Shown here one piece after another: positions 8,807-28,093 of a stretch of 64,000 bases of DNA; within the stretch, counting starts at the first letter, position 1; every line of letters starts with the position of its first letter. The DNA comes from Taibaiella chishuiensis. Its GTDB lineage: Bacteria > Bacteroidota > Bacteroidia > Chitinophagales > Chitinophagaceae. The stretch lies in assembly GCF_003014535.1 (NCBI RefSeq), contig NZ_PYGD01000005.1:248001-312000 (forward strand), written 5' to 3'. The notes beneath the pieces are model-generated. The model saw only the letters and a list, made by a program, of their open reading frames with translations. It was not told the DNA's origin and did not search any database. The position numbers and the translations under genes were made by a program.

Positions 8807-9493
8807 TTATGCTTGTTTAGGTAAGGTCGCCATTTTGATTACTTCATTGATCTTCCTCAGGTCGTCGTCGGCAATCGATTCGTTGCGTTCGGAATGGTTA
8901 CGGCTGGTTACCCAACCGGTATGCTCCTGGTAGCGGAGTACATTGGAGACCCGGTCACGGAAGATCAGGTGCCTGCAAAGCATATGGGTAAGGGTTTGCA
9001 GCTGTTCTTCCCGCGGTTGCAAGGCCGTTTGCCGCAGGTATTTCTTTATTTCCGCGCCAATCTCTTCCTGTTCTGTTTCGTTACCGATCACGAGGGGCAG
9101 CAATAACAAAAACAAAAGAGCGGGAACAGCCGGTTCGTTGGCGACGATCGTTTTAAACTCGCGCCAGCTTAATAAAGACAAATGAAAATGCCCGCCTGAA
9201 TTACCCAGGTAAACATCATTAAAAAAGTATACGGTTTCGTAGGGGTGGAATTCGGCGTAAAAAGTTACGGCTTCATTAACCGGGTGAGCAAAGGTGTATC
9301 CGAGCCAGGGCGATGCTTCGTTACCGGCATCGTCCGTAGCACCCGTAAGCTCGGTAAGCCATGCGCCCGCCGGCATGTCGAAGTTTTCGATCACATAATC
9401 TACCAGCATAATCTCCTGCACGTCGTCCGCCCCGAAGGGGAACTGCAACAGCAGGAACAGACAAAAATCCCGGTTCGATAAGCTTAAATCCAT
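8807..9493 (-). CDS. hypothetical protein of the immunity-like run (228 aa)
   Basis: A soluble alpha/beta protein. The N-terminal third pairs acidic helices with strands. The middle, FFNDVYLGNSGGHFHLSLLSWREFKTI, has a strand-rich pattern with conserved-looking Gly, His and Trp. The segment VPALLFLLLLPLVIG is very hydrophobic, but its place inside a helical region suggests a buried helix as well as a possible membrane segment. The C-terminal 90 residues are charged helices (EEIGAEIKKYLRQTALQPREEQL; NESIADDDLRKINEVIKMA). An Imm-family membership is plausible but not provable here. It ends 1 base before the SUKH gene. Confidence 0.65.
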   Translation of the reverse strand: MDLSLSNRDFCLFLLLQFPFGADDVQEIMLVDYVIENFDMPAGAWLTELTGATDDAGNEASPWLGYTFAHPVNEAVTFYAEFHPYETVYFFNDVYLGNSGGHFHLSLLSWREFKTIVANEPAVPALLFLLLLPLVIGNETEQEEIGAEIKKYLRQTALQPREEQLQTLTHMLCRHLIFRDRVSNVLRYQEHTGWVTSRNHSERNESIADDDLRKINEVIKMATLPKQA

Positions 9494-12766: not shown

Positions 12767-14071
12767 TTAGTTGTTGATATAACCTTTACGCAGTATAGCG
12801 GTCATTCCCTGTCTTATTTTTTCGCTTGGCAGATGTTCCATAATCCTTAAGAGTACCGGCGCTACTGCTTGCTGCTCTTCCGGTGTTTTGAAGTGCTGCC
12901 GGAACAGGACAAAGGTTTCAGACACGCCCAGGTATAACTCTTTATCCGCCATCAATTCTGCTTCGCTGTATTTTTTTCCTTTTTCAAAAAGCCCTTCAAA
13001 CAGGCTGATCGCTGTATCCATCAAGGGTTGGCTTATTTTACCATTATGCGCCTGGTAATCCCTGACCAGCCGTTGCAGCCAGGACAGGTATTGCAGGCGC
13101 TTCAGCAGCACCTTATTTCCCGGTTCTGTCCCGGATCGCAGCAGTGTCGTCGCATCGTCAAAAACCTGTTCGTAGTCCCTGCTGATATAATAAGTATACC
13201 AGAGTCTTTCTGCCGCCGTGCTTTTCCCTGTTATCGCTGCAAACAGCTGTTCACACAATGCCTGCGGGTAAGCGTACCTGTGGCAGAGGTTATTATTGAC
13301 CAGGAAAAGGCGGAGCAGTTTTTCTTTCAGCGAATCGGTTCCGCATACCGCCATCAATGCCTGTATACGTGTAATCGCGGCCTGCAAGGCTTCCGTACCC
13401 ATTTGCTCGTCGTCCAACAGGTAAACATAGGCACAGACCAGGTTACGCTGCTCCATGCGCCTGTCGATCACGGCCAGATCATCCTTACCCTGATCCTCTT
13501 TAAAGAACTGTTCATAATTATCCACACTCTCCTTATACCTGCCCGTGCCCAGGTAACAACGACCGTATAAGGTGAAGAATGCAATGTCTTTCGCTATCGT
13601 CGCCTGGTCCATGATCCGGATCGCATCCTCGTAGCGGCCCAGGTTTTGTGCGTGTGAGGCGGCATTCCACAACTTGATATCCGACTTCTTATCCATGTTA
13701 TAAGCCTTCACTGCGTACTCGTAGGCCCTGCTATAGTCTTCGAGATGGGCATAACAGGCCGATAAATTGGTATAGTACAAAGCCATTTTCTCCTTATCGT
13801 CAACAGGACAATACAATGCTGCCAGGCGAAATTGCTCTTTCGCTTTCCGGTATTGCTGCAGGTGGTACAGGCATAAACCTGCTTGCCCCAGCAGATAGGT
13901 ATCTTTGCTGCTGGATTCCAGCAAGGCCTCGTATATTTTAAGCGCCGGTCCGTATTGTTTATCGTAATAATACAGCTTGTCGGCAGTCTCCACATCCCGG
14001 GCCGCAGGCTGCTGCGCCCGGGCCGCCAGGGCCGTAAAAACCCAGATCAACATAAAAAATCGCTTCATCAT
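12767..14071 (-). CDS. exported TPR-repeat protein
   Basis: A 434-residue protein. Residues 1-19 (MMKRFFMLIWVFTALAARA) form a signal peptide. It contains several tetratricopeptide-like helix pairs, for example YGPALKIYEALLESSSKDTYLLGQAGLCLYHLQQYRKAKEQFRLAALYC, then AHLEDYSRAYEYAVKAYNM and NLGRYEDAIRIMDQA. TPR arrays usually act as protein-binding scaffolds; the binding partner here is unknown. Two adjacent ATG codons are possible starts. The gene lies 12 bases downstream of the first lipoprotein of the run. Confidence 0.75.
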   Translation of the reverse strand: MMKRFFMLIWVFTALAARAQQPAARDVETADKLYYYDKQYGPALKIYEALLESSSKDTYLLGQAGLCLYHLQQYRKAKEQFRLAALYCPVDDKEKMALYYTNLSACYAHLEDYSRAYEYAVKAYNMDKKSDIKLWNAASHAQNLGRYEDAIRIMDQATIAKDIAFFTLYGRCYLGTGRYKESVDNYEQFFKEDQGKDDLAVIDRRMEQRNLVCAYVYLLDDEQMGTEALQAAITRIQALMAVCGTDSLKEKLLRLFLVNNNLCHRYAYPQALCEQLFAAITGKSTAAERLWYTYYISRDYEQVFDDATTLLRSGTEPGNKVLLKRLQYLSWLQRLVRDYQAHNGKISQPLMDTAISLFEGLFEKGKKYSEAELMADKELYLGVSETFVLFRQHFKTPEEQQAVAPVLLRIMEHLPSEKIRQGMTAILRKGYINN

Positions 14072-14083
14072 ATCCCCCTTCCG

Positions 14084-14596
14084 TTACTGCTTACTACTTG
14101 CCTCGTTTATTTTTATGCCGGCTTTATCGAGAAACTGGAGCTGCACTTCCAGGCATTTATCCTCCAGCGCACCCAGTTCTGCTTTCCGGGTCGCCAGTTG
14201 GAGCCGGGTAGCTTTCCTGTCGCTGCTATCCTGCTGCGTTACATATTGAACCAGGAGGGGCGTATAGGCCGTCTCGATCTGCGACATATAATTGATCACC
14301 GCTGCATGAAAAGCATTGGCGGCCTCGCTATGCGTCACCGTTTCAGCCTCTTCCCGGATCTCTTTACAATAGGCGCCCAGGCGTTTGGCTTCCTTCAGGG
14401 CCATTTCGAAAGATTGGTGATCGCTCGTATCCTTGTCGAACCCACCGTCCATCAATTTCCCGTGCTCATCATCCAGCTTTTCCTTACAGCTGTAAAACAG
14501 GCTGGTCACTTTTTCGTTATACCCGTAATCCAGCCTGCCGCTGCAGGACACCAGCGCAATCATTATCGCAAGCAGTAACAGTCCGTATTTTTTCAT
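14084..14596 (-). CDS. helical lipoprotein, first gene of the immunity-like run
   Basis: A 170-residue protein. The ATG at 14596 yields MKKYGLLLLAIMIALVSC, a textbook lipoprotein signal (lipobox LVSC); a 19-residue longer frame begins inside a very A/T-rich stretch and would spoil it. The mature part is helical and charged (LFYSCKEKLDDEHGKLM, MALKEAKRLGAYCKEIREEAE) with a Lys/Gln-rich end. It resembles small helical surface lipoproteins of the LIC11966 type, but that is only a resemblance. A -7 promoter match on the minus strand lies about 185 bases upstream, next to the TetR gene. Confidence 0.65.
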   Translation of the reverse strand: MKKYGLLLLAIMIALVSCSGRLDYGYNEKVTSLFYSCKEKLDDEHGKLMDGGFDKDTSDHQSFEMALKEAKRLGAYCKEIREEAETVTHSEAANAFHAAVINYMSQIETAYTPLLVQYVTQQDSSDRKATRLQLATRKAELGALEDKCLEVQLQFLDKAGIKINEASSKQ

Positions 14597-14780
14597 AAAA
14601 ACCCACTTGTTAAAAAAAATGATTATCTTATACCGTTTTTTTCCTCTGGCCACTACAGGGTATTCCCTGTATTTAGGGGCAGCCGGATTTAGCTCAAAAT
14701 ATCCTCAAAAACCCGCCCACCCTGCATTCCGCCGGATTTAGCCTTCCTGCCGGCGCGACTGAATTAAAAAAATCTTGATG

Positions 14781-14788
14781 CAAAAATA
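14781..14788 (-). promoter_or_regulatory. candidate -7 element for the minus-strand run
   Basis: Read on the minus strand this is TATTTTTG, matching the Bacteroidota -7 consensus TAnnTTTG. No good -33 TTTG lies at the usual spacing, so it is only a candidate. It would give a leader of about 180 bases before the ATG at 14596. Confidence 0.35.
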
Positions 14789-14793
14789 AAATA

Positions 14794-14811
14794 ACTCACC
14801 AAATGGTGACT
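14794..14811. promoter_or_regulatory. candidate TetR operator palindrome
   Basis: ACTCACC-AAAT-GGTGACT is an almost perfect inverted repeat. It lies between the -7 element reading toward the immunity-like run and the -7 element reading toward the TetR gene. That is where a TetR-type repressor controlling both directions would bind. The regulatory role is inferred from position and symmetry only. Confidence 0.5.
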
Positions 14812-14822
14812 ATAAAATTATT

Positions 14823-14830
14823 TAACTTTG
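14823..14830 (+). promoter_or_regulatory. candidate -7 element for the TetR gene
   Basis: TAACTTTG matches TAnnTTTG exactly and lies about 30 bases before the ATG at 14860. The palindrome at 14794-14811 would overlap the region where sigma contacts upstream DNA. Confidence 0.45.
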
Positions 14831-14859
14831 AATAATAGGTTCACTCTTTATCATTTTTT

Positions 14860-15540
14860 ATGGAAAGAAAAGTAGTAGAAGGCCCGGTGCGAAGCAGGGA
14901 GAAAAGCAAGCAAAAGCTATTGAACGCAGTAGGAAAAATACTTAAAACAAAAGGATTTACAGCACTGAAAGTCAACGATATTGCTACCACTGCAGGTCTT
15001 GATAAAAAATTGATATATAATTATTTTGGCGGTGTCGATCAGCTGATCGACGAATATATCCGCAGCCAGGATTTCTGGAGTAATATTACCCTGGAAAATG
15101 CCGCTGACATGCCCGACGACGGGGGCAGGGAATTTATGAGGCTTATGTTATTAAGCCAGTTTGATTATGTAGCGAAAAACAAGGAATTACAGAAAATATT
15201 ATTGTGGGGACTTTACGAAAGCCGTAAGTCGCTGAAACGGGTAGCCGACGACCGGGAAATAGCGGGAGAAGTATTGCTTAAGCATATCTCCGATCCTTTT
15301 TTCGGCGAAAAAGCCCTGCATTTCCGCGCCTTAATGGCAATCATTGTTTCCGGCATTTATTACCTCGATATGTTTACGGCCGTAAACGGGAAGACCTTTT
15401 GCGGCATCGACCTTACGCAGGCCGCCGGCAGGACCGAGATCAAGAAGGCCCTCGAATCGCTGGTCACGATGATATACGAAACCCAGCAACCGGTAAAAAA
15501 GAAAAGAACGGCTCCCAAAAAAACAGTTGCCCGGCCATAA
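14860..15540 (+). CDS. TetR/AcrR-family transcriptional regulator
   Basis: A 226-residue protein. Residues about 12-62 form the DNA-binding domain: SREKSKQKLLNAVGKILKTKG, then FTALKVNDIATTAGLDKKLIYNYFGGVDQLIDEYI, with the usual TetR helix-turn-helix and 'YxYF' turn. The C-terminal part is helical and ligand-binding-like, and the tail is Lys/Ala/Pro-rich. TetR proteins normally repress themselves or a neighbouring divergent unit until a ligand binds. Here the divergent unit is the 13-gene immunity-like run, and the spacer holds a palindrome. The ligand is unknown. The gene ends before a strong terminator. Confidence 0.85.
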   Translation: MERKVVEGPVRSREKSKQKLLNAVGKILKTKGFTALKVNDIATTAGLDKKLIYNYFGGVDQLIDEYIRSQDFWSNITLENAADMPDDGGREFMRLMLLSQFDYVAKNKELQKILLWGLYESRKSLKRVADDREIAGEVLLKHISDPFFGEKALHFRALMAIIVSGIYYLDMFTAVNGKTFCGIDLTQAAGRTEIKKALESLVTMIYETQQPVKKKRTAPKKTVARP

Positions 15541-15574
15541 GGCCCCATCGATATTGATCAACAGCTTTTTCCCG

Positions 15575-15606
15575 ATGCCCCCTGCAGTAACTACTGCAGG
15601 GGGCAT
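15575..15606 (+). terminator. strong hairpin after the TetR gene
   Basis: A perfect 15-bp inverted repeat (ATGCCCCCTGCAGTA / TACTGCAGGGGGCAT) with a 2-base centre, which in practice forms a small loop. The downstream sequence ATTCATT is only weakly T-rich. Confidence 0.6.
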
Positions 15607-15724
15607 ATTCATTCTAACACACACGGACACCCTGTATACCCGGGAGATAGGCCTGCCTATAGCCTGACGCCGGTTTGCGGATGCAAAACCATGATAACAG
15701 CCCCCTAGCGGTTGATATTTTTTA

Positions 15725-15732
15725 TACATTTG
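15725..15732 (+). promoter_or_regulatory. candidate -7 element for guaB
   Basis: TACATTTG matches TAnnTTTG and lies about 78 bases upstream of the ATG at 15810. No -33 element at the ideal spacing was found. Confidence 0.4.
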
Positions 15733-15809
15733 CACCACGAAACAGGGCTACCGGAACGGGCAATCCAGCGCTCCTGACTACCAATTTACATAATTCAATT
15801 TCGGCATAT

Positions 15810-17306
15810 ATGGCACAGATTATCAATGAAGTCTCCAGGACTTTCAATGAGTACCTGCTCATACCAGGGTTAACGACAAAGGCTCATACCCCAGACAATA
15901 TCAACCTCGAGACTCCCTTGGTAAAGTTCAAAAAAGGAGAACGGGCCAGGATCTCGTTAAACATCCCCCTCGTTTCGGCTATTATGCAATCCGTTTCCGA
16001 CAGCGGACTGGCCATAGCCTTGGCCAAACAGGGAGGCTTATCCTTTATCTTCAGTTCTCAATCCATAGAGAGCCAGGTCAATATGGTTGAAATCGTAAAA
16101 GGGTATAAAGCAGGCTTCGTAGAAAGCAGGGCCAATATCACGCCCGAACATACGCTGAAGGACATCCTGGCGCTGAAGGAAAAAACCGGCTTTTCTACGG
16201 TAGGGGTAACAGACGATGGTACAGCCTCCGGAAGGCTGCTGGGCATGGTAACCAGCAGGGATTACCGTGTCGGCAAAGACAACGAGCATAAAAAGGTTAA
16301 AGATTTTATGACCGCTTTCGAAAGCCTGATTGTAGCGCAGGACGGCATTTCCTTAAGTGCGGCAAACGACATCATCTGGGAAAACAAACTTAACGCGCTT
16401 CCGGTAATCGACCCCGATCAGCATTTAAAATATTTTGTATTTCGTAAGGATTACGAGAACAGCATCCAGAACCCGCATGAAATCACCGATGCGGAAAAAC
16501 AGCTCCTGGTTGGTGCAGGCGTAAATACCAGGGATTATAAAGAACGCATACCCGCTCTCGTTAACGCAGGCGCAGATGTGCTTTGTATCGACTCCTCCGA
16601 CGGCTTCTCGGAATGGCAAAAGGAAACGATCCGGTTTGTAAGGGAAAATTATGGCAACGAGGTCCTGATCGGCGCCGGCAATGTTGTCGACAAAGAGGGC
16701 TTTCTTTACCTGGCCGAAGCAGGCGCCGATTTCATTAAAGTAGGTATAGGCGGCGGTTCCATTTGCATTACAAGAGAACAGAAAGGCATAGGCCGCGGAC
16801 AGGCCACCGCCTTAATAGAAGTTGCTGCTGCCAGGGACAAATACTTCGAAGAAACCGGCAATTATATCCCCATTTGTTCGGACGGAGGCATTGTACAGGA
16901 TTACCATATGACACTGGCGTTGGCCATGGGCGCCAACTTTTTAATGATGGGCAGGTACTTTGCCCGGTTCGACGAAAGTCCCACACGAAAATTACTGGTA
17001 GGCGGAAATTATGTAAAAGAATATTGGGGCGAAGGTTCCAACAGGGCGAGAAACTGGGAAAGATATGATATGGGGGGCAGTGGCAATCTGAAATTTGAAG
17101 AGGGCGTAGACAGTTATGTACCCTATGCCGGTTCGCTGAAGGAAAACCTGGATATAACCCTGGGTAAGATTAAATCGACGATGTGCAGTTGTGGCGTATT
17201 ATCGCTGGAAGAGATGCAAAGCAATGTAAAAATAACGATGGTATCTTCCACGAGTATCATAGAAGGCGGCGCACACGACGTAATTTTAAAAGAGATGAAC
17301 AGCTAA
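15810..17306 (+). CDS. guaB: IMP dehydrogenase
   Basis: A 498-residue enzyme that oxidises IMP to XMP with NAD, the committed step of GMP synthesis. The ATG at 15810 begins [20 protein letters not shown]; upstream codons in the same frame are weak and non-homologous in character. After an N-terminal barrel part ([26 protein letters not shown]), residues about 95-215 hold two CBS-type elements (TVGVTDDG...[33 protein letters not shown]). [23 protein letters not shown] contains the catalytic Cys319. CSDGGI and [18 protein letters not shown] follow, then the flap and [13 protein letters not shown]. The loop sequence GGGSICITR, instead of GPGSICTTR, marks the alternative clade of bacterial IMPDH, not a defective enzyme. 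The gene stands alone. Confidence 0.93.
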
Positions 17307-17493
17307 CCGCTAAGCATATTACAAAACGGGATGAACGCAGGCAGTATATCTACTGCCTGCGTTTGTTTTGAACAGCACATCAGGCTGACTATACTAAAGA
17401 ATTGCATTCGGCAAGGAAGCGCCAGGCTGAGCAAGATCCGGGTTTCCCGGCTTTTATTTTAAACTGAACTTGCAGTTTAAAATAGAAGACAAC

Positions 17494-18024
17494 ATGGAAA
17501 TTAAACATTGTGTCCTGCAGGATACAAACGAAATCATGTCGCTTTACGAAGCAGCGAGAAACTTACAAATTCAGCGAAAAATGGTAGTCTGGCCCTTTTT
17601 TGAAGACACCTTCATCCAAAAAGAAATAGCGGAAAAACGGCAGTGGAAGATCATCGTTGATCGTGCGATTGCCTGTAACTGGGCTGTTACTTTCGAAGAC
17701 CGGGAAATATGGGGTGAAAAAGATATTAACGATGCCATCTATATTCATCGCATATGTACGAAGCCCGAATTAAGAGGAAACAGGTATATCGATGCCATTG
17801 TCAACTGGGCCAAACAATACGCCCTGAAAATGGGCAAACGATTCGTTCGTCTTGACACCTTAGGGAACAACACCAGGCTGATTGAACATTACACATCGGC
17901 AGGGTTCGATTTTAAGGGCATGGTACAACTGACCGATACAGGGAATTTGCCGGCTCATTATCAAAACGAACGGAATTGCTGCCTGTTTGAAATGGATGTG
18001 CCCACTGCCGGTATATACCTGTAA
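17494..18024 (+). CDS. GNAT-family N-acetyltransferase
   Basis: A 176-residue protein. I used the ATG at 17494, preceded by AGAAGACAAC, instead of a TTG at 17470. Typical GNAT layout: an N-terminal strand and helix (EIKHCVLQDTNEIMSLYEAA), a central strand with IYIHRICTKPELRGNRYIDAIVNWAKQYA, where 'RGNRYI' stands for the acetyl-CoA pyrophosphate loop (usual R.xG..L), and the late RFVRLDTLGNNTRLIEHYTSAGF. It transfers an acetyl group from acetyl-CoA to an amine; the acceptor is not predictable. Confidence 0.85.
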   Translation: MEIKHCVLQDTNEIMSLYEAARNLQIQRKMVVWPFFEDTFIQKEIAEKRQWKIIVDRAIACNWAVTFEDREIWGEKDINDAIYIHRICTKPELRGNRYIDAIVNWAKQYALKMGKRFVRLDTLGNNTRLIEHYTSAGFDFKGMVQLTDTGNLPAHYQNERNCCLFEMDVPTAGIYL

Positions 18025-18387
18025 TCCTGTGCTACATCTTTCTTTTCAGTGTCTTGTTATTCCTATGCGAAACACCTCCCCTTGTCCTCTGCACAGCAAA
18101 CAACACCGGTTAATCATAAGTCTAAGCCGTGCAGGGCCCGCTTCCTGTGCAGCGAGGGGATTTTATTTCCGATAGTAAACAGGCGTATAGTCTGTAAGTG
18201 GAAGCGCGCCGGGCTGTACCCGGTGTTGTAACTATTAAACCTATACGGACTTCGCACACTTATGTGTTCCCATCAACCTCTTATGAACCGGTGCCCAGCA
18301 CCTGTGAACTATAGGTTTCACTGAACCAGGCAACAGCTTAACTTCATTATGAACAACATTATCGTTTATTAATTAAAACCAAAATCA
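18025..18387. other. 363-base intergenic region
   Basis: No credible gene. Its second half carries copy A of a repeated leader (18232-18350), described separately. The first half contains a G/C-rich stretch (GCAGGGCCCGC) of unknown meaning that recurs at about 19920. Confidence 0.6.
18232..18350 (+). repeat. leader repeat, copy A (upstream of the lanthipeptide gene)
   Basis: About 120 bases that align with 18784-18901. Both copies begin CTATTAAACCTAT, continue GACTTCGCACACTTATG, share ATGAACCGG in the middle, and end near AACTTCAT. The first 33 bases are almost identical. The copy ends 38 bases before the ATG of the lanthipeptide precursor. It may be a shared promoter or untranslated regulatory RNA; the sequence alone does not decide. 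Confidence 0.7.
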
Positions 18388-18582
18388 ATGAAAAAGAAAA
18401 CATTAAACCTAAAAAAACTGAGCCTGGCAAAAGTAACCATCACGGAGCTGAACATGAACCAGGCAAGTAGGGCAAAAGGCGGAGGAACAATGGAAATTAC
18501 CGCATGTGGAACTTGTGTTACGAATGTCGGCACTGTTTGCCTTTGTGAATCGAGGTTGTGTACATCTAAACTTGGATGCTAG
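18388..18582 (+). CDS. class I lanthipeptide precursor (orphan)
   Basis: A 64-residue peptide. The leader (residues 1-33) has the Bacteroidota class I pattern: a Lys-rich start, LNLKKLSLAKVTITELN at 6-22, and a Gly triplet at 31-33 as the likely cleavage zone. The core (34-64) holds six Cys (40, 43, 51, 53, 58, 64) and several Thr/Ser (34, 38, 42, 45, 49, 55, 59, 60), the material for lanthionine rings. No LanB dehydratase, LanC cyclase or peptidase-transporter lies in the window, so the modifying enzymes must be encoded elsewhere or the peptide is not matured. A strong terminator follows. Confidence 0.85.
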   Translation: MKKKTLNLKKLSLAKVTITELNMNQASRAKGGGTMEITACGTCVTNVGTVCLCESRLCTSKLGC

Positions 18583-18615
18583 GTCTATTAACTTCCAACA
18601 ATCCAGGTTAACTAA

Positions 18616-18664
18616 AAACAAACGCTTAATGAATAGCGCTACTGCTATCATTAAGCGTTTGTTT
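18616..18664 (+). terminator. terminator after the lanthipeptide gene
   Basis: A 17-bp perfect stem (AAACAAACGCTTAATGA / TCATTAAGCGTTTGTTT) with a further short inner pairing (ATAGC / GCTAT). It is A-rich before and T-rich after, so it could work on either strand. Confidence 0.7.
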
Positions 18665-18783
18665 ATAATGGACAATAAAGATAACGTACAAATGCCAATG
18701 CTTGAACGGTCGCATTGTTTGAACATTCAAGCTTTTTTTACCAGGCTATTGACATGAGCGTTCGCGTAAGCTGGTCTTTTTAC

Positions 18784-18901
18784 CTATTAAACCTATGTAG
18801 ACTTCGCACACTTATGCCTTCAAATTAATCTCTGATGAACCGGGCCGCAACGGCAGCGAACTGGCAGTTTCCGGAGCCAGATAACAACATAACTTCATCA
18901 T
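18784..18901 (+). repeat. leader repeat, copy B (upstream of the secreted-protein pair)
   Basis: The second copy of the leader at 18232-18350, with the same order of conserved blocks. It ends 62 bases before the ATG at 18964. Having the same leader before the lanthipeptide gene and before the small secreted proteins suggests that both units respond to the same signal. Confidence 0.7.
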
Positions 18902-18963
18902 TGATATCATTTTTTGCCCGTGAATTCACAGACATTGCTAACCTCAAAAAAATCTAACTAAAG

Positions 18964-19377
18964 ATGAAAAAGATCCTGTTCCTTTTACTGCTCAGCTCCT
19001 TGTTTAAGTTCAACCAACTTCATGCCGGCAGCATAACCATTGTAAATAACTCATTAACTGCCGTCTTCGAGGGATATCTTATGGCCGACAATAATGTAGC
19101 CAACCCTTCTATATCCACAACCTACGGAAAGTATATCACGGTTCCGCCGTCCACAAACCTCAGTTTTGCGAGCCCTGCCGCTCTGCCCAGTCCTGTCGGT
19201 ATGGGGCTGCCCGCATTACCTACAGGCGCTTTTATCGGCATCAAAGCCTCGATCAATCCCAACCCGTTCAACGTAGGAAAAGCCGGCGTTTATCTGGGTT
19301 ATCCACCCTACGTAGTCAACGGATATATTGTAACCTGGACCCAGATAGGCGATGATGCATTAATTAATATTTATTAA
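18964..19377 (+). CDS. small secreted protein A
   Basis: A 137-residue protein with a signal peptide (MKKILFLLLLSSLFKFNQLHA) and a mature part starting GSITIVNNSLTAVFEG. Strand-rich, with Pro/Ser/Thr-rich turns and the blocks TGAFIGIKASINPNPF and GKAGVYLGYPP. It is clearly a paralogue of the next gene (19401-19826): GSLRIVNQ, TGVFIGLKGGLTG and VAGTYLGYPL align. There are no Cys in the mature part. Function unknown; a small beta-sandwich is likely. The next gene begins 23 bases downstream. Confidence 0.75.
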   Translation: MKKILFLLLLSSLFKFNQLHAGSITIVNNSLTAVFEGYLMADNNVANPSISTTYGKYITVPPSTNLSFASPAALPSPVGMGLPALPTGAFIGIKASINPNPFNVGKAGVYLGYPPYVVNGYIVTWTQIGDDALINIY

Positions 19378-19400
19378 CCCCTGTTACTTTTAATTTAAAA

Positions 19401-19826
19401 ATGAAAAAAGCACTGATCACTTTCGCAATACTTGCCGGCGCAGCATTACCGGTAGTGCACGCAGGTTCTCTCAGAATTGTAAACCAGCGTCCGGTTCCCT
19501 ATGTTGGCGAGATCGTCGCTACGAATAACCCCTCGGCTCCGTCTATTGCAACTGCCATATATGCCCAGGTTACTGTGCCGGCAAATACCACGGTCTTCTA
19601 TCCGGACCCGACGAATATGGTAAGTCCTTATGGCCCCGGTGCACCGCCATCGGCAACCGGTGTTTTTATTGGCCTTAAAGGCGGCCTTACGGGAATTCCC
19701 CTGGACGGAACTGTAGGTGTGGCGGGTACTTACCTGGGATATCCCCTGTTTAGAAATAATTTACCCGCATTTCTGATCACATGGTCTCAACCAACCCCGA
19801 CGGACGCGGTAGTTACCATACTTTAG
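19401..19826 (+). CDS. small secreted protein B
   Basis: A 141-residue paralogue of the preceding protein, with signal peptide MKKALITFAILAGAALPVVHA. Shared blocks with protein A are the GS-x-x-IVN opening, the AxVTVP / TVPxxT strand, the Gly-rich TGVFIGLKGG, and the ending IxWxQ...D..V.I. The pair is probably an operon ended by the hairpin at 19874-19908. Confidence 0.75.
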   Translation: MKKALITFAILAGAALPVVHAGSLRIVNQRPVPYVGEIVATNNPSAPSIATAIYAQVTVPANTTVFYPDPTNMVSPYGPGAPPSATGVFIGLKGGLTGIPLDGTVGVAGTYLGYPLFRNNLPAFLITWSQPTPTDAVVTIL

Positions 19827-19873
19827 GTTTTAAGGTATGCTCATCTCATTGTTAACTTACCACACGCAATATT

Positions 19874-19908
19874 AAAAAGTGCCGGCAATTAAACTGCCGG
19901 CACTTTTT
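19874..19908 (+). terminator. terminator after the secreted-protein pair
   Basis: A 14-bp perfect stem (AAAAAGTGCCGGCA / TGCCGGCACTTTTT) ending in a T-run. Confidence 0.85.
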
Positions 19909-20338
19909 ATCTTTTGGCCCCGCAGGGCCCGCCTTCCCTCGCCGACATAACCTATGAAAACAATACGCTATAACCCTTACCGGGTAAGTATTCCAGCAGA
20001 CCATCCCTTTATCCTCAGCACTGACGTGCCGGCCTACCTAGTATTAGGTATTTTACAGTCCGTGTGCTTGAGAAAGAAAAAAATAGTACGAAATTGCGAC
20101 AGGTAAGACAGGCTTTGCTGTAAGCGGAGAACAGGCTTTATGCAACCGGCATCCGGACTAGCCTGCTCTTATCAGGTAAGATACAGAACCTGTCCGGACC
20201 AGATTACCACGACCACCCTTGTCTCCCCTACTGTGACGCAACTAAGTTTACGATAATTTAATCTCCATTGTGTCCGGGCCCCTCCATCACCCTTTAATTA
20301 CACCCTATCTTTAAAGTAAATAATTCTGAAAATCTGGC
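19909..20338. other. intergenic region before the four-gene cassette
   Basis: About 430 bases without a convincing gene. A TATCTTTA stretch near 20309 is one base away from the -7 consensus and could drive the cassette. Nothing else was recognised. Confidence 0.5.
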
Positions 20339-21262
20339 ATGTTAAAACTGATCAGCATTTCGATATTTGTGTATCTTTTTTACAAGATTTATAAGTCTTT
20401 AAAAGGAACGATAAAAAAGAGGCCCCGCATTAGCGCTGCGCCAGAAACGTTTCATCCGATTGCGTCTTCGGAGGAGACTTTTCATCACGACGAGTTTAAA
20501 GAATTCCCAGAGCCCATACCGGAAATAGGCGGCGGGTGGCTTTCTATGGGCAAGGACAAGCGGCTGCTCAATGAATATGCCGAACGATTGGATCAACATG
20601 GTTCAACCATCCGGGATAGAGCATCAAGGGCCATCGTCAGGTTCAGAAACGACAATGAACAATTAAACAGTCAGCAGCTCCAGTTATTCCGGAGGATTTA
20701 CCAGTCGAAAAGATTATTAAAAAGATTCCCGGAATTAAAACGGCAACGGATCACCGCCGGCGACCTCCCGGTAACACTAAGAATCATGCTGCCGTCAAAC
20801 CCTTCGTTTCTGAACATAAAACAGCTCAACAAGAGTTATGATCATACCCCGGTAAAGGCCGGTCAGGCAGTCGGTAAAATATTGACTACACATCATGGCC
20901 TCAACAATAACCAAAAAATCATAGGGGTTGCCATCGCCATGGTTGCCGTTGCCGTAAAATCCAAATCAAATATCTCGAAGCTGAAAAGAGAGTTGGAGTC
21001 CGTACGGGGCCAGGTTTCCAGCTACGCCATATCTATGAAAACCACCATTATGCAATTGGGCAAATCCCATATGGAAATCGTAGCATTATCCGGCCAGCTT
21101 AAAACAACGGAAGCGGAACTTATCCAACTGGTTAAGCAAGCCGCCGCCATTCCCCCGAATAAAAAAAGCTTAAGCTCCTTATCTCCCGATGAAGCCGGCA
21201 AGCTCCGAACTCTTTATTTCCTGATGCTGCAGGCAGAACAATACGGGAAAACACACATATAG
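20339..21262 (+). CDS. unrecognised membrane-anchored coiled-coil protein (cassette gene 1)
   Basis: A 307-residue protein with an N-terminal membrane segment (about residues 3-18, LKLISISIFVYLFYKIYK). An acidic-to-basic linker follows, then a helical body (RLLNEYAERLDQHGSTIRDRASRAI; LQLFRRIYQSKRLLKRFPELK). A second hydrophobic helix lies at about 199-213 (IIGVAIAMVAVAVK). After it comes a long heptad-like helix (about 215-275: NISKLKRELESVRGQVSSYAISMKTTI...). I do not recognise the family. It appears to be the first gene of a unit with 21286-24095, followed after 23 bases by the next gene. Confidence 0.65.
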   Translation: MLKLISISIFVYLFYKIYKSLKGTIKKRPRISAAPETFHPIASSEETFHHDEFKEFPEPIPEIGGGWLSMGKDKRLLNEYAERLDQHGSTIRDRASRAIVRFRNDNEQLNSQQLQLFRRIYQSKRLLKRFPELKRQRITAGDLPVTLRIMLPSNPSFLNIKQLNKSYDHTPVKAGQAVGKILTTHHGLNNNQKIIGVAIAMVAVAVKSKSNISKLKRELESVRGQVSSYAISMKTTIMQLGKSHMEIVALSGQLKTTEAELIQLVKQAAAIPPNKKSLSSLSPDEAGKLRTLYFLMLQAEQYGKTHI

Positions 21263-21285
21263 TCTAATGTTCAACAAGCAAAACC

Positions 21286-21693
21286 ATGAAAACATCCGGT
21301 ACCCAGGTACACCTCGTCCACGCCATGGACAGGGCCAAAACGACAACATTTACGCTCTCCTCTACAGAGATATATGGTTTATTGAGCGAATCGCTCCAGC
21401 TCATGAAGCTCTTAAGTACAGAAAAACGTGATCTCGAGGCGATCAGAAACCACCATGAGGAAAGAAATATTTACCTCCGGAATCTGCACGAAGAAGTGAT
21501 GTATCATATAGAAAGAACATATACGGAACGATCGCAAATGATCGCCGAGATTTCCAGCATTTCCAAAACGCTCATCGAATCCGGGAATATAGACGCAGGG
21601 ACCGTTTTAATGAACAGGCTGATCGATTTCGTATCCAAAAACAGCCCGTTAAAATCATCCCTCGATTTCAAAAACGAAAGACTGTTACTGTAA
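21286..21693 (+). CDS. unrecognised helical protein (cassette gene 2)
   Basis: A 135-residue soluble protein. From about residue 25 to 110 it is a continuous charged helix-rich stretch (LLSTEKRDLEAIRNHHEERNIYLRNLHEEV; ERTYTERSQMIAEISSISKTL), probably coiled coil. The first gene of the cassette also has a long coiled-coil stretch, so direct interaction is conceivable. No known family. Confidence 0.6.
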   Translation: MKTSGTQVHLVHAMDRAKTTTFTLSSTEIYGLLSESLQLMKLLSTEKRDLEAIRNHHEERNIYLRNLHEEVMYHIERTYTERSQMIAEISSISKTLIESGNIDAGTVLMNRLIDFVSKNSPLKSSLDFKNERLLL

Positions 21694-21827
21694 GAAGATA
21701 CTGCTTGCTCAACCCGGCCAGCGCCATAATTTTTTTATGCAAAGCAGGCAAGATTATAATTTACCCGGTAAAAATCTATTCCTGATTGCTCAACCCGTGT
21801 TATTCATCCTTTGCACAAGCAGCATCT

Positions 21828-23516
21828 ATGAAAGACAAACAACAACCTTCAGGCCATAGTCAAAGACTTGGCAGCAAAATATTTCCCGGAACGGATCAGA
21901 CATCGGGTTATGATCAACTGGCCAGTTATCATGAACACGAACACCTGGTTGTCAATTCAGGCACGCTTTATGGCATCATGCTCAATTGTTATGAGGGCCT
22001 GGCCATGATGTCGGCGGCACAGGATCACTTTGGCAAAATCCATTCGTTTCTATTATCCCAAAGCCAGTTAGCCCATGAATGTTATGCCACCTGGGTTTCT
22101 ATCGAAAGATCGCTAAACAATAATGAACAGCTTACGCTGCCTCAAATAATAGCGGAGTACCCGGAGTATGAAAAGTATTACAGGATAGCAGAGCAACTGG
22201 TATCCGGTTTGACGGGTTCTTTTTTCCGGAGAGCAGTCATGGCTTCGGCCATGTATGTTTCCTTCCATGCCTGCAAACCCTGCGACCTGGTTATGGAAAA
22301 TTTCAGTAACCCGGATTTTGAATTCGGAGACAACCTGGAATTCCCCAACGACCGGTTTTTACATATTGCCAGCGTGTTTTCTCCAGACACCATCAGGGAA
22401 AGTGTAGCAACATTTATAACGTCGAAAACCGGTGACCCGTGTTACCAGTTCCTTTGCGACGAAGCGAACGGGCTTCCGGCTGAGGCCGATAGCGCAATGG
22501 TTATGAAAACCCAGGAAGCGTTGATGTACTTTATGTTCGACCTCTTTGCCCGTCATTTCGAACAACGCAGATCCAGGAGTTATGCGCTGGATTATGGCCC
22601 AACATTTCAGAAGGCCATCAGCCAGCAATTGATCGGCTATGTTGCACTAACCGAAAATATTTCCACAGACGATATCGGCCAGTTCAATGAAATGAGCAGC
22701 TATCTTTCCGATCCTTTAAAGGTCCATCGCAGCATAGGACATACCTACGAATCCGAATCGATCCAGCTTAGTCCGGAACCCCACTTTTGCACGATTATCC
22801 AGCCATCTGAATTGGGTGTACTCGCTTCGCAAATATATGAGGGAGACGATTTCAAAAGGCTCAATATTATGTTTCGTAGCGCAGATTCCATGAAAAGACA
22901 ATACCACTTCCTGGAAGCGCGGCACAGGGAATGGTTCGAGGAAGCAAATCAACAAAGGATATTTATCCGGAAATTATATACCTACCAGGATAGCACCGTT
23001 ATCATCCTGGTTCCATTTGAAGACCCCAACGACCTCACTTCATTTCTGAAGGAAGTGCCGGACGATATCCAAACCCTTGCCTGTGTTTCGCATAGCATTG
23101 TCCCCATGCTTGATGATCAGTGGCGCGCATTTTTGAGCACAGGCATAGACTACGTTTATTATCTGAATGACAGGTCGCTTGTAGAAGTACTGGATAGCGA
23201 TGCATTAAAAGAGGGAGAAACAGCGATGTTTACCGATGTTCTTATTGAATATAACGATGTCAAAGCCGTTGCCCTGGTGTTTTGTTACGATAATAAAGCA
23301 ACAGGGGTTAAGGAAATTCATGTCGTACCCTGTTCTCCCGGTTATGCGGATTTTATCCTGGGTTATATTCCCCTGTACTACCCGGGTTATGCATATGATT
23401 CGGTTTTTTTCGACCTGGATATTTATATTAGTGTTCAATCTGTAATGCGTTCGATTTACATGGAGGAAAAGAGTTGGTATTTCAGGTCATTTTACATTTC
23501 AGACATCTTTAAATAA
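21828..23516 (+). CDS. unrecognised large protein (cassette gene 3)
   Basis: A 562-residue protein; the ATG at 21828 was preferred over a TTG at 21786. Soluble, no signal peptide. The N-terminal half is helical, with many His, Tyr and Met (DQLASYHEHEHLVVNSG; SMVMKTQEALMYFMFDLFARHF). The C-terminal half looks alpha/beta, with strand-like segments TVIILVPFEDPNDL, TLACVSHSIVPM and VKAVALVFCYDNKATG. No catalytic signature that I know could be found. The next gene starts 9 bases after its stop, so the two are probably co-translated. Confidence 0.65.
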   Translation: MKDKQQPSGHSQRLGSKIFPGTDQTSGYDQLASYHEHEHLVVNSGTLYGIMLNCYEGLAMMSAAQDHFGKIHSFLLSQSQLAHECYATWVSIERSLNNNEQLTLPQIIAEYPEYEKYYRIAEQLVSGLTGSFFRRAVMASAMYVSFHACKPCDLVMENFSNPDFEFGDNLEFPNDRFLHIASVFSPDTIRESVATFITSKTGDPCYQFLCDEANGLPAEADSAMVMKTQEALMYFMFDLFARHFEQRRSRSYALDYGPTFQKAISQQLIGYVALTENISTDDIGQFNEMSSYLSDPLKVHRSIGHTYESESIQLSPEPHFCTIIQPSELGVLASQIYEGDDFKRLNIMFRSADSMKRQYHFLEARHREWFEEANQQRIFIRKLYTYQDSTVIILVPFEDPNDLTSFLKEVPDDIQTLACVSHSIVPMLDDQWRAFLSTGIDYVYYLNDRSLVEVLDSDALKEGETAMFTDVLIEYNDVKAVALVFCYDNKATGVKEIHVVPCSPGYADFILGYIPLYYPGYAYDSVFFDLDIYISVQSVMRSIYMEEKSWYFRSFYISDIFK

Positions 23517-23525
23517 ATCTAAAAC

Positions 23526-24095
23526 ATGGAGCAACCGGACCACATTCAAGTAAATGAAAAATACCTGGAAGACTATTGGCGCACAATGATCAAAGGAGAC
23601 GAAACGGTAGACTTCTACCGCGCTCAGCTGAGGTTTATAGATGCTTTTAAAAATGAGCTTTCCATTACGGGCGCAGATGGATTGTACCTCAAGAAAGATA
23701 TTTGGAATGTATCCCTGAACCCCGATGCACTGCAGAATTTTGTTACGATTCCAACCATAGTCGGCATCCTGGACTATATCGGGTGCACACAATTGGCGGC
23801 AACGGTGATCCCTATCGTGTTCCAGGGATTATTCAAGGTTCAGAATTTCAAGATCTCACTCAAGGACGAAAAAATTTTTCTCAGCCTTCCTCTGATGGAC
23901 GACAATGTTTACAAGTCGGCAGAGCAGCTGTATAAAAGCCTTCCAAAAGCAACGAGAAAAAAGATCAGCGAGTTTGATTTTTTTGACACTATCGAAAATT
24001 TCGTAAAAGCCGGGCTTGCACAAGAAAAGGATGGCAAGTACCTGATCCTGGAAAAGAATCAGACCAAGGTGCAATTTTCATTTATGCCCAGGTAG
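23526..24095 (+). CDS. unrecognised protein (cassette gene 4)
   Basis: A 189-residue soluble protein. The N-terminal third is charged and helical (QVNEKYLEDYWRTMIKGDE). A hydrophobic centre (TIVGILDYIGCTQLAATVIPIVFQGLF) is followed by a mixed part (KISLKDEKIFLSLPLMDDNV) and a basic C-terminus. Family unknown. It closes the four-gene unit; about 180 bases follow before the SDR gene. Confidence 0.6.
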   Translation: MEQPDHIQVNEKYLEDYWRTMIKGDETVDFYRAQLRFIDAFKNELSITGADGLYLKKDIWNVSLNPDALQNFVTIPTIVGILDYIGCTQLAATVIPIVFQGLFKVQNFKISLKDEKIFLSLPLMDDNVYKSAEQLYKSLPKATRKKISEFDFFDTIENFVKAGLAQEKDGKYLILEKNQTKVQFSFMPR

Positions 24096-24252
24096 GGAAC
24101 GGTCTTATTGCCGTGTATAGCAGCAGCTAAGCCTTAAACCCGGTGCATGATAGAAACGGCATACCCGCGCGTCGGTCGCGGTCTGCCCTTTACTGTCCCG
24201 AATGCCCCTTTATTTGTCCGGATCATACAATATCGGAAGCGTTGTTCCGCAG

Positions 24253-24260
24253 TACATTTG
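24253..24260 (+). promoter_or_regulatory. candidate -7 element for the SDR gene
   Basis: TACATTTG matches TAnnTTTG and lies 19 bases before the ATG at 24280. The leader would be very short. No -33 element at the ideal distance was seen. Confidence 0.4.
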
Positions 24261-24279
24261 AGTAACTAATAACTATACT

Positions 24280-25101
24280 ATGTTACTACAAGGTAAAAAC
24301 GCGATTGTGTACGGGGCTGGCGGATCGCTTGGCGGCGCTGTGGCGAGCGCGCTTGCCGCTGCCGGCGCCCATGTATTCCTTACCGGTCATCATCTTACCA
24401 GTGTACAAAAGACAGCCGCTGGCATCGAATCTGCCGGAGGAAAGGTTTCCGTCCACCAGGTCGATGCCCGGAACGCACGGTCGGTAAACGATCATATTCA
24501 ATCTGTACTGGACACTGCGGGCTCGGTCGATATCTCGTTCAATGCCATAGGCTGGCAGGACACACAGGATATTCCCTTAACAGAAATGAGCCTCGAAGAC
24601 TTCCTGCGCCCGGTAAGCATTGCCCTGGAAACACAGTTCCTGACCGCGACCGCTGCTGCGCGGGTAATGAAAACACAGCAATCCGGTGTCATCCTTACGT
24701 TGACCGCAACACCGGGCGGTATAGGTTATGCCAATGTAGGCGGGTTTGGCCCGGCCTGCAACGCCGTAGAAGGGTTTTCCCGCAACCTGGCCGCGGAGTC
24801 AGGTCCCTACGGCATCCGCATCGTTAATATCCGTTCGGCAGGTTCGCCGGATTCAAGGATCTTCAAAGAAGCCATAGCCGCAGGTGGCGAGGCGGTAGAG
24901 CAGTTTATCCAGAAAATGAAAAACGATACCATGCTTAAAGCCTTACCGCTTATGGAAGATATCGCCAACACAGCGGTATTTCTTGCATCAGCTATGGCCG
25001 GTAAAATAACCGGCGTTACCATCGATGTTACCGCCGGTACGACAAGCGCACTGAACTATAAAGTGACGAATGTCGCATTCTTGAAAAAAGAAACACCATA
25101 A
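24280..25101 (+). CDS. SDR-fold protein with an altered active site
   Basis: A 273-residue Rossmann-fold protein. YGAGGSLGGAVASALAAAGA at residues 11-30 is the nucleotide-binding loop, and VDARNARSVNDHI and ISFNAIGWQD correspond to the usual adenine-contact and NNAG regions. At the site of the catalytic Y-x-x-x-K, however, the sequence is FGPACNAVEG: Phe156 replaces Tyr and Cys160 replaces Lys, while the usual Ser strand reads LTLTATPGG. It therefore belongs to the atypical SDRs and may bind the cofactor without classical dehydrogenase chemistry. An enoyl-reductase-like role (MAGKITGVTIDVTAGT at the end) is possible. Confidence 0.8.
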   Translation: MLLQGKNAIVYGAGGSLGGAVASALAAAGAHVFLTGHHLTSVQKTAAGIESAGGKVSVHQVDARNARSVNDHIQSVLDTAGSVDISFNAIGWQDTQDIPLTEMSLEDFLRPVSIALETQFLTATAAARVMKTQQSGVILTLTATPGGIGYANVGGFGPACNAVEGFSRNLAAESGPYGIRIVNIRSAGSPDSRIFKEAIAAGGEAVEQFIQKMKNDTMLKALPLMEDIANTAVFLASAMAGKITGVTIDVTAGTTSALNYKVTNVAFLKKETP

Positions 25102-25164
25102 TTCAGTATCCCGGCAAGCAGTCGTATAAGCCTGTTGAAGGTTTGGGATTTTGCAGCAGAAGAC

Positions 25165-25194
25165 AATAAAGCCATCCTCCGGGATGGCTTTATT
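25165..25194 (+). terminator. terminator after the SDR gene
   Basis: A 13-bp stem, AATAAAGCCATCC / GGATGGCTTTATT, with a small loop and a T-rich end. Confidence 0.75.
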
Positions 25195-25662
25195 CGTTTC
25201 CGGTCAGCTATCCTGGTGCGTTGATACCACAACCGGCACACCGGCCTTTAATTTTATTTTAGCAAACCGGCAAACAGCGATCAGAAAATAAGGTAATGCC
25301 ATCCGGCGACCGCTGGCTTATGCCCTGGCTACTCCTTTACCATCAGTTATTTGTAGCAGTCCCGATAGCAAAGCCTAAGCAACACTTACATCTTACACAT
25401 TTTACAATACCAGCACACAATGCCCGTAGACCTTACCTGCAGGGCTTTTCCGCTTTACAGTAATTAACAATACCACATAGTATATGCAAGCCTATAAGGT
25501 GCCTATGGTAATGACAACGCGGCAGACGGTAAGCGGCTTTAGCATTTTTTTTGAACAGGACACACACCAGTATAAGCAACACGATACCTATTTAAACCGC
25601 CTGCCTGATACCAGCGGGTTCATACCCTTTATCTATTTTATTCACTGATTAATTTTAATTGC
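25195..25662. other. intergenic region before the secreted protease
   Basis: About 470 bases with no convincing reading frame on either strand. It probably holds the protease promoter, but no clear consensus element was found. Confidence 0.5.
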
Positions 25663-27546
25663 ATGGCTGTTATTTGGTTTAAACGAAAAGGTAATGAGAC
25701 AAAAAAATGGATGTTGGCGCTGACTATGATCGCGACATCTTTTTCCTCCACATGGGGACAGATCAGCAGTGGCGGCTTCCCGCTAAGCAGGCAATCCGAC
25801 ATGCCCCTTAATTATGTACCGGCTACCCAGGCCAGGCTCCCGGATATCGAAAGCAGTCTTAAGAAATGGAATACAGACAAGGGGCCAAAACCTGCTCCTG
25901 TAGCGGTCATGACGCCCGTAGATCTGAAGTTTCCCGATGCGGGCGCTTTGTATACGACCGGCGATGGTACACGCATATGGCGGGCGCAGCTCGACATGGC
26001 CGGCGCTAAGGCCATCGGGCTTTACTTTTCGAGGTTTCGTTTACCCGAAGGTGTAAAGCTGTACCTGAGCAATGCCAGCGGCACACAGGTAATGGGCGCG
26101 TTTACGGCTGCCAATAACGATCCCGGTTCCTATAAATTCGCTACCGAGCCGGTAGCGGGCGCCACCGTTTACCTGGAGCTGAATATAGCACCCAAAGTAA
26201 ACCTCGCTAATATCGACCTGGATATAGATAAAGCAGCCGCCTATTTTGCCGGCATCGAACAGCTGCGCAAATTCTCGGATTACCAGACCCTGAGCGCTTA
26301 TGACGATATGTTTACCGGTGAGTCTTCGGTGTGCATGATCAATGCGGTTTGCCCGGCGGGCAACGGTTACGAAGCACAACGTAATGCAGCATTAAACATT
26401 TTATTTCCCATTAAAGTTGGCAATGATGAATTTGTAGGCACCTGTAGCGCCACCATGGTAAATACCGCTGCCAATACACCCGCCAACTGTAAACAATACA
26501 CCCTGCTTGCATCGCACTGTATGGATGGCACCAATACGATAGCCGATTCCTCGTTCAGCCAGGTCATCCTCAGGTTTAATTACCAGCATACTGGTTGTAC
26601 GCCTGCAGCTAACGTAATTCCCAATACGGATCAAACCAGTATGGTTGGCGCCAAATTCGTAGCACGCTCCATACTGCCACTTAAATACGACAGCAATAGT
26701 CCCAACGACAGCACCGCAGACGTAGGCAAACTGAAAGGCGACTTTTTACTGTTGGAACTCCGCTCTGCAATCCCCGCGGCCTGGAATATTAATCTTGCAG
26801 GCTGGAACAATGCAGCCAATATACCCTTGACCAACAGCGGCAATAAAAAATTCATCGAATTCCATCACCCCGGCGGCGATGTCAAAAAGGTTTCATTCTC
26901 CCATAACCTGCAAAGCAGCAGCGGCATAGCAGACCCGCCTTCGCACTGGGGCACCACGATGGATTCGGGACTTATCGCACAGGGCAGTTCCGGTAGTGCG
27001 CTTTTTGATGCAGATGGCCGGCAGATCGGTATTGCCAGCTTTGCGCCCATAGGCATTTCGGGTGCCTGCGCCGTAAACAGTAAAGGAGCAAGTGTGGCCG
27101 ATAGAACGAGCGCAACTCTATACTATAGTAAAATGTCCTACATCTGGGATTATAGCGTGGATGGGCCAGCAGCGATCCGTAAACTGAAACCCTGGCTGGA
27201 TCCGGCAAACAGCAATGCCGTAACCGTAGATGCCGTAAAATCCAATTGCAGCCCACTGGGTGGTGGTACCGGTATTACCATAGACAAAGGCAACCTCGAT
27301 CAGTCAGTTGACGTATACCCTAACCCCAGCCAGGGCCTGACGCATGTCCAGGTCAATCTCAAAGAAGCGGCCAACCTTAACCTGGAGTTATACGACATCA
27401 GCGGAAGGAAGCTACGGGATTATAACATGGGTGCTGTGCGGAAAGCTAACTTCAGCCTGGATTTAAGCGGTTATCCCGACGGCATGTACCTGCTTAAAGT
27501 GACTGATGGTTATCATAGCACCAGCAAAAAAATCATGATCCGATAG
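25663..27546 (+). CDS. T9SS-exported trypsin-like serine protease
   Basis: A 627-residue protein with an N-terminal signal region (KWMLALTMIATSFSSTWGQ). Residues about 85-190 form a beta-rich prodomain-like part. The peptidase domain contains LLASHCMDG (His285), KGDFLLLEL (Asp360) and AQGSSGSALFD (Ser443), the triad of a lysyl-endopeptidase-like trypsin fold, with several Cys. The last 80 residues, DVYPNPSQGLTHVQV...LYDISGRKL...YPDGMYLLKV...KKIMIR, are a type A T9SS sorting domain, which is removed after secretion and linked to surface anchoring or release. Likely role: extracellular protein digestion. An alternative ATG within the first 30 residues is possible. Confidence 0.88.
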   Translation: MAVIWFKRKGNETKKWMLALTMIATSFSSTWGQISSGGFPLSRQSDMPLNYVPATQARLPDIESSLKKWNTDKGPKPAPVAVMTPVDLKFPDAGALYTTGDGTRIWRAQLDMAGAKAIGLYFSRFRLPEGVKLYLSNASGTQVMGAFTAANNDPGSYKFATEPVAGATVYLELNIAPKVNLANIDLDIDKAAAYFAGIEQLRKFSDYQTLSAYDDMFTGESSVCMINAVCPAGNGYEAQRNAALNILFPIKVGNDEFVGTCSATMVNTAANTPANCKQYTLLASHCMDGTNTIADSSFSQVILRFNYQHTGCTPAANVIPNTDQTSMVGAKFVARSILPLKYDSNSPNDSTADVGKLKGDFLLLELRSAIPAAWNINLAGWNNAANIPLTNSGNKKFIEFHHPGGDVKKVSFSHNLQSSSGIADPPSHWGTTMDSGLIAQGSSGSALFDADGRQIGIASFAPIGISGACAVNSKGASVADRTSATLYYSKMSYIWDYSVDGPAAIRKLKPWLDPANSNAVTVDAVKSNCSPLGGGTGITIDKGNLDQSVDVYPNPSQGLTHVQVNLKEAANLNLELYDISGRKLRDYNMGAVRKANFSLDLSGYPDGMYLLKVTDGYHSTSKKIMIR

Positions 27547-27588
27547 CTGTGCACTTTGCCCATCTTCTTTGTGTGATGATATGTTTAG

Positions 27589-27623
27589 CCGGTCTGTGTT
27601 GCGGTATTCGTAACACAGACCGG
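27589..27623. terminator. hairpin between convergent genes
   Basis: A 12-bp perfect stem (CCGGTCTGTGTT / AACACAGACCGG) lies between the protease gene and the minus-strand HxlR gene. There is no real T-run on either side, so its efficiency is uncertain. Confidence 0.5.
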
Positions 27624-27718
27624 ATATATGTTTAGGAGAAAAGCTACGAAGGTTCGCGAACTCAGCATTTTTCAACGGATTGGTTTATTGATCCCATTTT
27701 TAAGGCCTGTGTTCCGGT

Positions 27719-28093
27719 TTAAACGGTAGTTGCACCAGGTATATGACCCGCATCTGCCATGAGCTCCATATCTTTCACCCCCCATTCCTGGATCGTTTTA
27801 ATAACCGGCAACAGGCCCCTGCCATACTCAGTAAGCGCGTACTCCACTCTTGGTGGCACCTCGGCAAAAACAGTCCGCCCGATAATCTTATCTTCTTCGA
27901 GTTCCTTAAGCTGGTTGATCAGCATCTGCTTGCTGATATGAGGTATCGCTTTCTGCAGCTTACTGAAACGGTTACAACCGGTATGAATAGCATATACCAC
28001 TAAAACCTTCCATTTCCCGCCGATCTTGTTGAGAAAATGCGTAACCCCGCAATTGTAGGGGTTAAAGTTCTTGTTTTTTCGCTTCGCTGCCAT
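27719..28093 (-). CDS. HxlR-family winged-helix regulator
   Basis: A 124-residue DNA-binding protein. The HxlR signature begins at NPYNCGVTHFLNKIGGKWKVLVVYAI, in which the Cys is often redox- or aldehyde-sensitive. RFSKLQKAIPHISKQMLINQLKELEEDKII is the recognition helix and wing, and ALTEYGRGLLPVI completes the fold. HxlR proteins commonly control adjacent oxidoreductases. The nearest one here is the SDR gene 2.6 kb away, so the target is unclear. Confidence 0.88.
   Translation of the reverse strand: MAAKRKNKNFNPYNCGVTHFLNKIGGKWKVLVVYAIHTGCNRFSKLQKAIPHISKQMLINQLKELEEDKIIGRTVFAEVPPRVEYALTEYGRGLLPVIKTIQEWGVKDMELMADAGHIPGATTV

Follow-up and report, generated by a model that had tools for sequence, protein, structure and literature searches.

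Among the systems closest to the locus considered here are NTP-dependent conflict systems, among whose effectors SLATT and trypsin domains are named (PMC7159879). The locus itself is a cassette of four consecutive genes (genes 1 to 4; + strand, 20339-24095), delimited by open reading frame (ORF) calls and their translations within a 64,000-nt stretch of Taibaiella chishuiensis DNA, here termed the window. Its likeness to those systems consists of a SLATT_2-trypsin fusion encoded near a distant relative of gene 3 in another genome; the cassette differs in that sequence models detected neither a signalling NTPase or GTPase nor a known effector domain in genes 1-4. Genes 1 and 2 keep their order as a pair in a second genome, while gene 3 has a relative standing apart in a third. 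The cassette thus looks like two modules, and these data suggest that genes 1 and 2, and gene 3 (with gene 4), were assembled from separate pieces.

Gene 1 has one credible relative among the 293 other genomes of our family sample, in the Chitinophagaceae metagenome-assembled genome C1_MAG_00011 (contig JAIXOJ010000121.1, stretches L014 and L041; hereafter G269), with 38% identity over residues 4-306 at an expectation value (E) of 8.6e-50. At E 0.01 or better, gene 1 matched three of the 294 genomes in that sample (its own, G269 and G014), the G014 match (E 0.0036) being set aside as chance level. The relative of gene 2 (140 residues, 39% identity, L014:139-561) is adjacent to that of gene 1, both genes are full length and in the same order as in the window, and the gap between them is 1 base versus 23. 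Extending the search to 396 genomes of the order, the window's own included, with a profile built from the two gene 1 sequences added no credible relative; nine of the 395 others gave matches at E 4.5e-5 to 0.008, which were set aside as weak. Three of these nine ORFs were read: two look like endonuclease/exonuclease/phosphatase proteins, and the third is an 81-residue frame. The other six come from long frames (1177-1223 residues for five, 1030 for the sixth); we take them to be coiled-coil matches, SMC-like by their length, two of them seen as alignment fragments. Motif scans for gene 2 retrieved 17 stretches from 84,980 species genomes and five from viral contigs, among which a profile search found a relative encoded on the G269 contig only. 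Exact-pattern scans of viral contigs, with profiles of genes 1, 2 and 3, returned no relative; such collection scans need exact peptide patterns and miss distant or divergent relatives.

The resemblance of the G269 pair to genes 1 and 2 in length, order and adjacency does not extend to its neighbors. A 601-residue VirD4/TraG-like protein (L014:1595-3400; PF02534, E 3.4e-23) is encoded on the same strand and ends 108 bases upstream of the pair. Starting 221 bases downstream of its gene 2 are three mutually similar ORFs of 153, 141 and 141 residues; the one tested among them shows a below-cut-off similarity to clan AA aspartic proteases (TIGR03698, 41.7 of 57.35 bits; gag-asp_proteas, E 0.001). 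No relative of gene 3 was found in G269 at E 0.01, and Pfam detects no VirD4-like ATPase among genes 1-4. Approximately 230 residues precede the PF02534 match in the VirD4-like protein, the first 185 of which match no Pfam model even at E 10, so a TIR-like or DUF4062-like N-terminal domain is not claimed. Its P-loop stretch, GKSRY, aligns with GAGKG of a TraG-like protein from another genome (G316), and by this one pairwise alignment the P-loop looks degraded, such that its departure from the TraG-like sequence makes ATPase activity doubtful. That the sole other copy of the pair found directly follows a VirD4/TraG-like gene invites the proposal that the locus derives from a conjugative or type IV secretion-like element, as its remnant or satellite, with genes 1 and 2 as accessory membrane components that cooperate with a VirD4-like coupling protein. 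We regard this as improbable, given the departing P-loop, the absence from the window's own genome of any match to the VirD4-like protein at E 1e-15, and the lack of any match to gene 1 or its relative in 72,556 plasmid records. Inspection of the ORF lists by eye revealed no relaxase, mating-channel or further transfer gene at either locus, the G269 contig ending ∼1.2 kb past the VirD4-like gene.

Gene 3 likewise has one credible relative, among 393 other genomes of the family: a 588-residue protein from another Chitinophagaceae genome (G582; stretch L064, 8750-10516), which resembles it in length, acidity and alignment over residues 28-523 (E 4.8e-19) but shares only 22% identity. In all, 4 of 394 family genomes were matched, comprising the window's own, G582, and two (G310 and G234) whose matches contain internal stops and were set aside. 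There was no relative in 58 other close genomes, a two-sequence profile found only its own match in 247 genomes of the class, and exact-pattern scans of species genomes and viral contigs found none. At E 0.01, gene 1 has no relative in G582. The gene 3 relative there is followed, on the same strand, by a PG_binding_1 protein (after a gap of 214 bases), a YkuD_2 protein and, as the third gene, the SLATT_2-trypsin fusion (L064:5119-6771), in which SLATT_2 is matched at E 8.8e-12 in Pfam and 7e-26 in NCBIfam, and trypsin at 21.4 bits against a cut-off of 20.6. Gene 4 has nothing credible in 294 family genomes; partial matches in 7 of the 293 others (E 0.001-0.007, two with internal stops) were discarded as weak. 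Searching the G269 contig and a 16-kb stretch of G582 gave no gene 4 relative, nor did an exact-pattern scan of the collection. Comparisons of gene 3 with the VirD4-like protein of G269, and of gene 4 with its protease-like protein, revealed no similarity, so neither is taken as a counterpart. Genes 1 and 2 were also rejected as mutual duplicates (hhalign probability 1.2%).

The preliminary description treated the four genes as one cassette. Their order as a set of four was found nowhere else; in the relatives' loci genes 1 and 2 are paired and gene 3 stands apart, which comes close to the refuting condition named in that description. The same separation (gene 3 without gene 1 in G582, genes 1 and 2 without gene 3 in G269) would also be expected if the cassette were two unrelated adjacent units, separately acquired, with genes 1 and 2 serving one function and genes 3 and 4 another, and a short direct repeat inside the 134-base gap between genes 2 and 3 fits this as well. 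We nevertheless consider it unlikely, if only somewhat so, because all four genes share a strand, close spacing and similarly low G+C, and no terminator-like site is listed in that gap.

None of genes 1-4 reaches a curated cut-off in Pfam or NCBIfam, and PHROGs and PADLOC-DB 2.0.0 gave weak matches only, so the cassette remains unrecognised, as first described. In PADLOC, gene 2 was weakly matched, and genes 3 and 4 were unmatched up to E 1. Candidates set aside as chance or composition were Lectin_N, MltA, GGDEF_2 and SpoVG in Pfam (the last for gene 4; PF04026, 17.9 bits, under the cut-off of 29.6), Cbp1, V-type ATP synthase subunit E, MbpA and GCDPHdlase in NCBIfam, LmuB, typeIV_Cas11 and AbiLii in PADLOC, and several PHROGs at E 0.02-0.29. 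A V-ATPase subunit G match to the gene 2 profile (E 0.13) was taken to reflect helical composition. Among the relatives and their neighbors, PADLOC matches to DrmC (0.013), HerA (0.00032, VirD4-like protein) and RT-Protease_XI (0.0026, SLATT-trypsin fusion) were similarly dismissed. Neither genes 3 and 4 nor the profiles of genes 1, 2 and 3 gave a usable hit in sequence searches of the PDB; a match of gene 4 to chain 7rdr, a circular tendon repeat protein, has E 3.2e-7 over the whole sequence with no single stretch passing, and was rejected as a repetitive-target artefact. Phages and plasmids contained no match for gene 1, gene 3 or the gene 3 relative, and plasmids none for gene 4 or the G269 relative of gene 1. 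The four families are thus undescribed in the libraries searched, while our literature search is too narrow to call the pair of genes 1 and 2 unpublished.

The four genes are real. Their coordinates confirm the layout given in the preliminary description (307, 135, 562 and 189 residues, with gaps of 23, 134 and 9 bases), and genes 1-3 are credibly coding because protein relatives exist for each. For gene 2 this settles the case despite a weak codon test, in which a minus-strand frame ties at 0.031. Gene 4, which has no relative, is credibly coding by its own-frame codon log-odds of 0.203, the highest of the four, while none of the five other frames exceeds 0.047. Gene 3 has an alternative start, a TTG at 21786, 14 codons upstream, which would extend it to 576 residues.

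The protein features of gene 1 support both an N-terminal membrane helix and a coiled coil, as first described, although the anchor is borderline by hydropathy in the window protein. Its N-terminal hydrophobic segment has a 19-residue Kyte-Doolittle mean of 1.26 at residue 1, whereas that of the G269 relative is plain at 2.44; both proteins have a second, weaker hydrophobic stretch near residues 188-213 (best 1.61 and 1.50, respectively). The best 28-residue heptad window of gene 1 starts at residue 209, within a proline-free stretch spanning 172-271, and is reached by 5 of 300 shuffles; that of the relative starts at 244 and is reached by 41 of 300. Gene 2, described as almost wholly helical, is consistent with this in being proline-free over residues 1-120, but has no heptad signal, with 223 of 300 shuffles reaching its best window. 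Gene 3 has no strong hydrophobic segment (maximum 1.09), consistent with the large soluble protein that had been proposed. In gene 4, a hydrophobic stretch overlooked by the preliminary description reaches 1.64 in windows starting at 72-87, and this protein could also meet the membrane. Net charges are +22 for gene 1 and +18 for its relative, and -34 for gene 3 and -42 for its relative.

The reading we favor, to which we assign a probability of roughly 0.35, is a lineage-restricted accessory cassette of two modules, in which module A would tether module B at the membrane for intracellular conflict. Within module A, gene 1 would place its N-terminal helix in the inner membrane with its basic, partly coiled-coil part facing the cytoplasm, and gene 2 would be its small helical partner. 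Module B would comprise the soluble, acidic gene 3 and its closely coupled companion gene 4, which probably belongs to it. Because gene 1 is basic and N-terminally anchored and gene 3 is acidic, module A would here most likely hold module B at the membrane as a basic anchor holds an acidic client, while in the other genome the same anchor pair would stand beside the VirD4-like protein instead. The most likely purpose would be defence against phages or mobile elements, acting at the membrane. We infer complex formation, tethering, membrane topology and purpose alike. The case for conflict draws on the single SLATT-trypsin fusion near the gene 3 relative, the sporadic distribution and the low G+C; of the defence or surface-secretion role first suggested, the neighbors of the rare relatives lean weakly to conflict and defence, and the role is unproven.

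Several observations weigh against this proposal. By hydropathy, the window's gene 1 anchor is borderline (1.26). There is one relative each for genes 1 and 3, such that their neighborhoods are single cases and form no trend. The 214-base gap after the G582 gene 3 relative sets it off from the genes downstream, of which PG_binding_1 and YkuD_2 point to cell-wall work; these cell-wall neighbors, and the VirD4-like neighbor in G269, fit other purposes too. Neither relative has both modules, so no link between A and B is seen outside this genome. Within the cassette, genes 2 and 3 may belong to separate transcripts, given the 134 bases between them. The charge complementarity of genes 1 and 3 may be due to chance. 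The best PADLOC match of gene 1, to LmuB, has E 0.0015 over a short stretch. Single-sequence structure models of genes 3 and 4 were unusable (mean predicted local distance difference test scores of 36.9 and 37.0, respectively).

A bolder proposal, which we hold to be a long shot, is that an undescribed conflict system uses genes 1 and 2 as a swappable pair for membrane docking, in which the anchor is constant and the cytosolic module that plugs in differs between genomes: the VirD4-like protein with its degraded P-loop and the aspartic-protease-like proteins in one, genes 3 and 4 in the other. If this is true, Bacteroidota would gain a modular conflict system tethered at the membrane; otherwise the locus is one more rare accessory cassette. 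The safe reading is ordinary accessory-gene biology. Four protein families that no library model covers can now be tested, and the pair of genes 1 and 2 is what most merits further study.

The cassette had been described as richer in A/T than its flanks, hinting at transfer. Its G+C is indeed low (0.455, 0.436, 0.447 and 0.432 for genes 1-4) against a mean of 0.510 (standard deviation 0.031) for 33 other window ORFs, a set picked by us that includes the left neighbors; third-position G+C is low yet within range, with one to six of the 33 ORFs lower. However, the left neighbors at 14860, 15675, 17470 and 18964 are similarly low (0.43-0.47; that at 19401 has 0.52), so that with most genes from 14.9 kb on equally low, the feature is not specific to the cassette. 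Horizontal transfer is possible: sporadic distribution and low G+C are compatible with it, but no integrase was seen by eye, a tRNA search found none marking its boundary, and a repeat search found no convincing flanking repeat. Rfam models had no match in 14000-28000. To assess synteny, 40 window ORFs were compared with the surroundings of the best matches to the downstream gene at 25663-27546, in seven stretches of which six come from the genus's three other species and one from the window's own genome; eight of the 40 were matched at 1e-10 with 22-58% identity, and no shared gene order was seen, so no empty site can be defined.

That the cassette adjoins a lanthipeptide and secreted-protein locus was borne out by a lanthipeptide precursor at 18388-18582 (NF038153, E 6.8e-8). 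Proximity, and the low G+C common to most of those genes, would allow the cassette to be a surface or secretion module tied to them. We judge this very unlikely, since a terminator-like hairpin of 15 pairs separates the upstream secreted-protein-like genes from gene 1 (Table 1) and genes 2-4 have no signal peptide discernible by eye. The terminator scan listed 11 sites in the region against 5.0 (standard deviation 2.4) in shuffles, and as similar sites also arise in shuffles, only its long stem sets this hairpin apart. From gene 4 to the short-chain dehydrogenase gene at 24280, the scan lists no terminator-like site on the + strand. A Bacteroidota promoter pattern is unmatched in the window, where 1.79 matches are expected by chance.

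Table 1. Coordinates of the cassette genes and associated features in the window
Feature	Position	Strand	Description
Gene 1	20339-21262	+	307 aa; probable N-terminal membrane anchor, basic, coiled-coil-like part from ~209
Gene 2	21286-21693	+	135 aa; no proline up to residue 120; presumably helical
Gene 3	21828-23516	+	562 aa from ATG; acidic, presumably soluble
Gene 4	23526-24095	+	189 aa; 9 bases after gene 3; hydrophobic stretch ~72-105
Terminator-like hairpin, 15 pairs	19873-19909	+	terminator scan and inverted-repeat search
Gene 2/gene 3 gap with two 16-base copies	21701-21716, 21782-21797	+	94% identical; may be chance

Elsewhere in the window, two 94-base direct repeats (74% identical) precede the lanthipeptide precursor at 18388 (18226-18319) and the gene at 18964 (18778-18871). 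They share an exact GACTTCGCACACTTATG, which has two matches in the window against 0.08 expected (up to 3 mismatches), and may form a common regulatory or leader region. On the minus strand at 47421-47750, far from the first, lies another class I lanthipeptide leader (NF038153, E 1.7e-9). An Imm19-family immunity protein at 8807-9493 (PF15563, E 7.7e-16) hints at polymorphic-toxin immunity genes in the window. The protein at 15675-17306 is of the IMP dehydrogenase type (NF005493/PRK07107, 909 bits); the matches listed from the genus's three other species are at 35-36% identity, and its own genome carries a second copy (37%) at another site.

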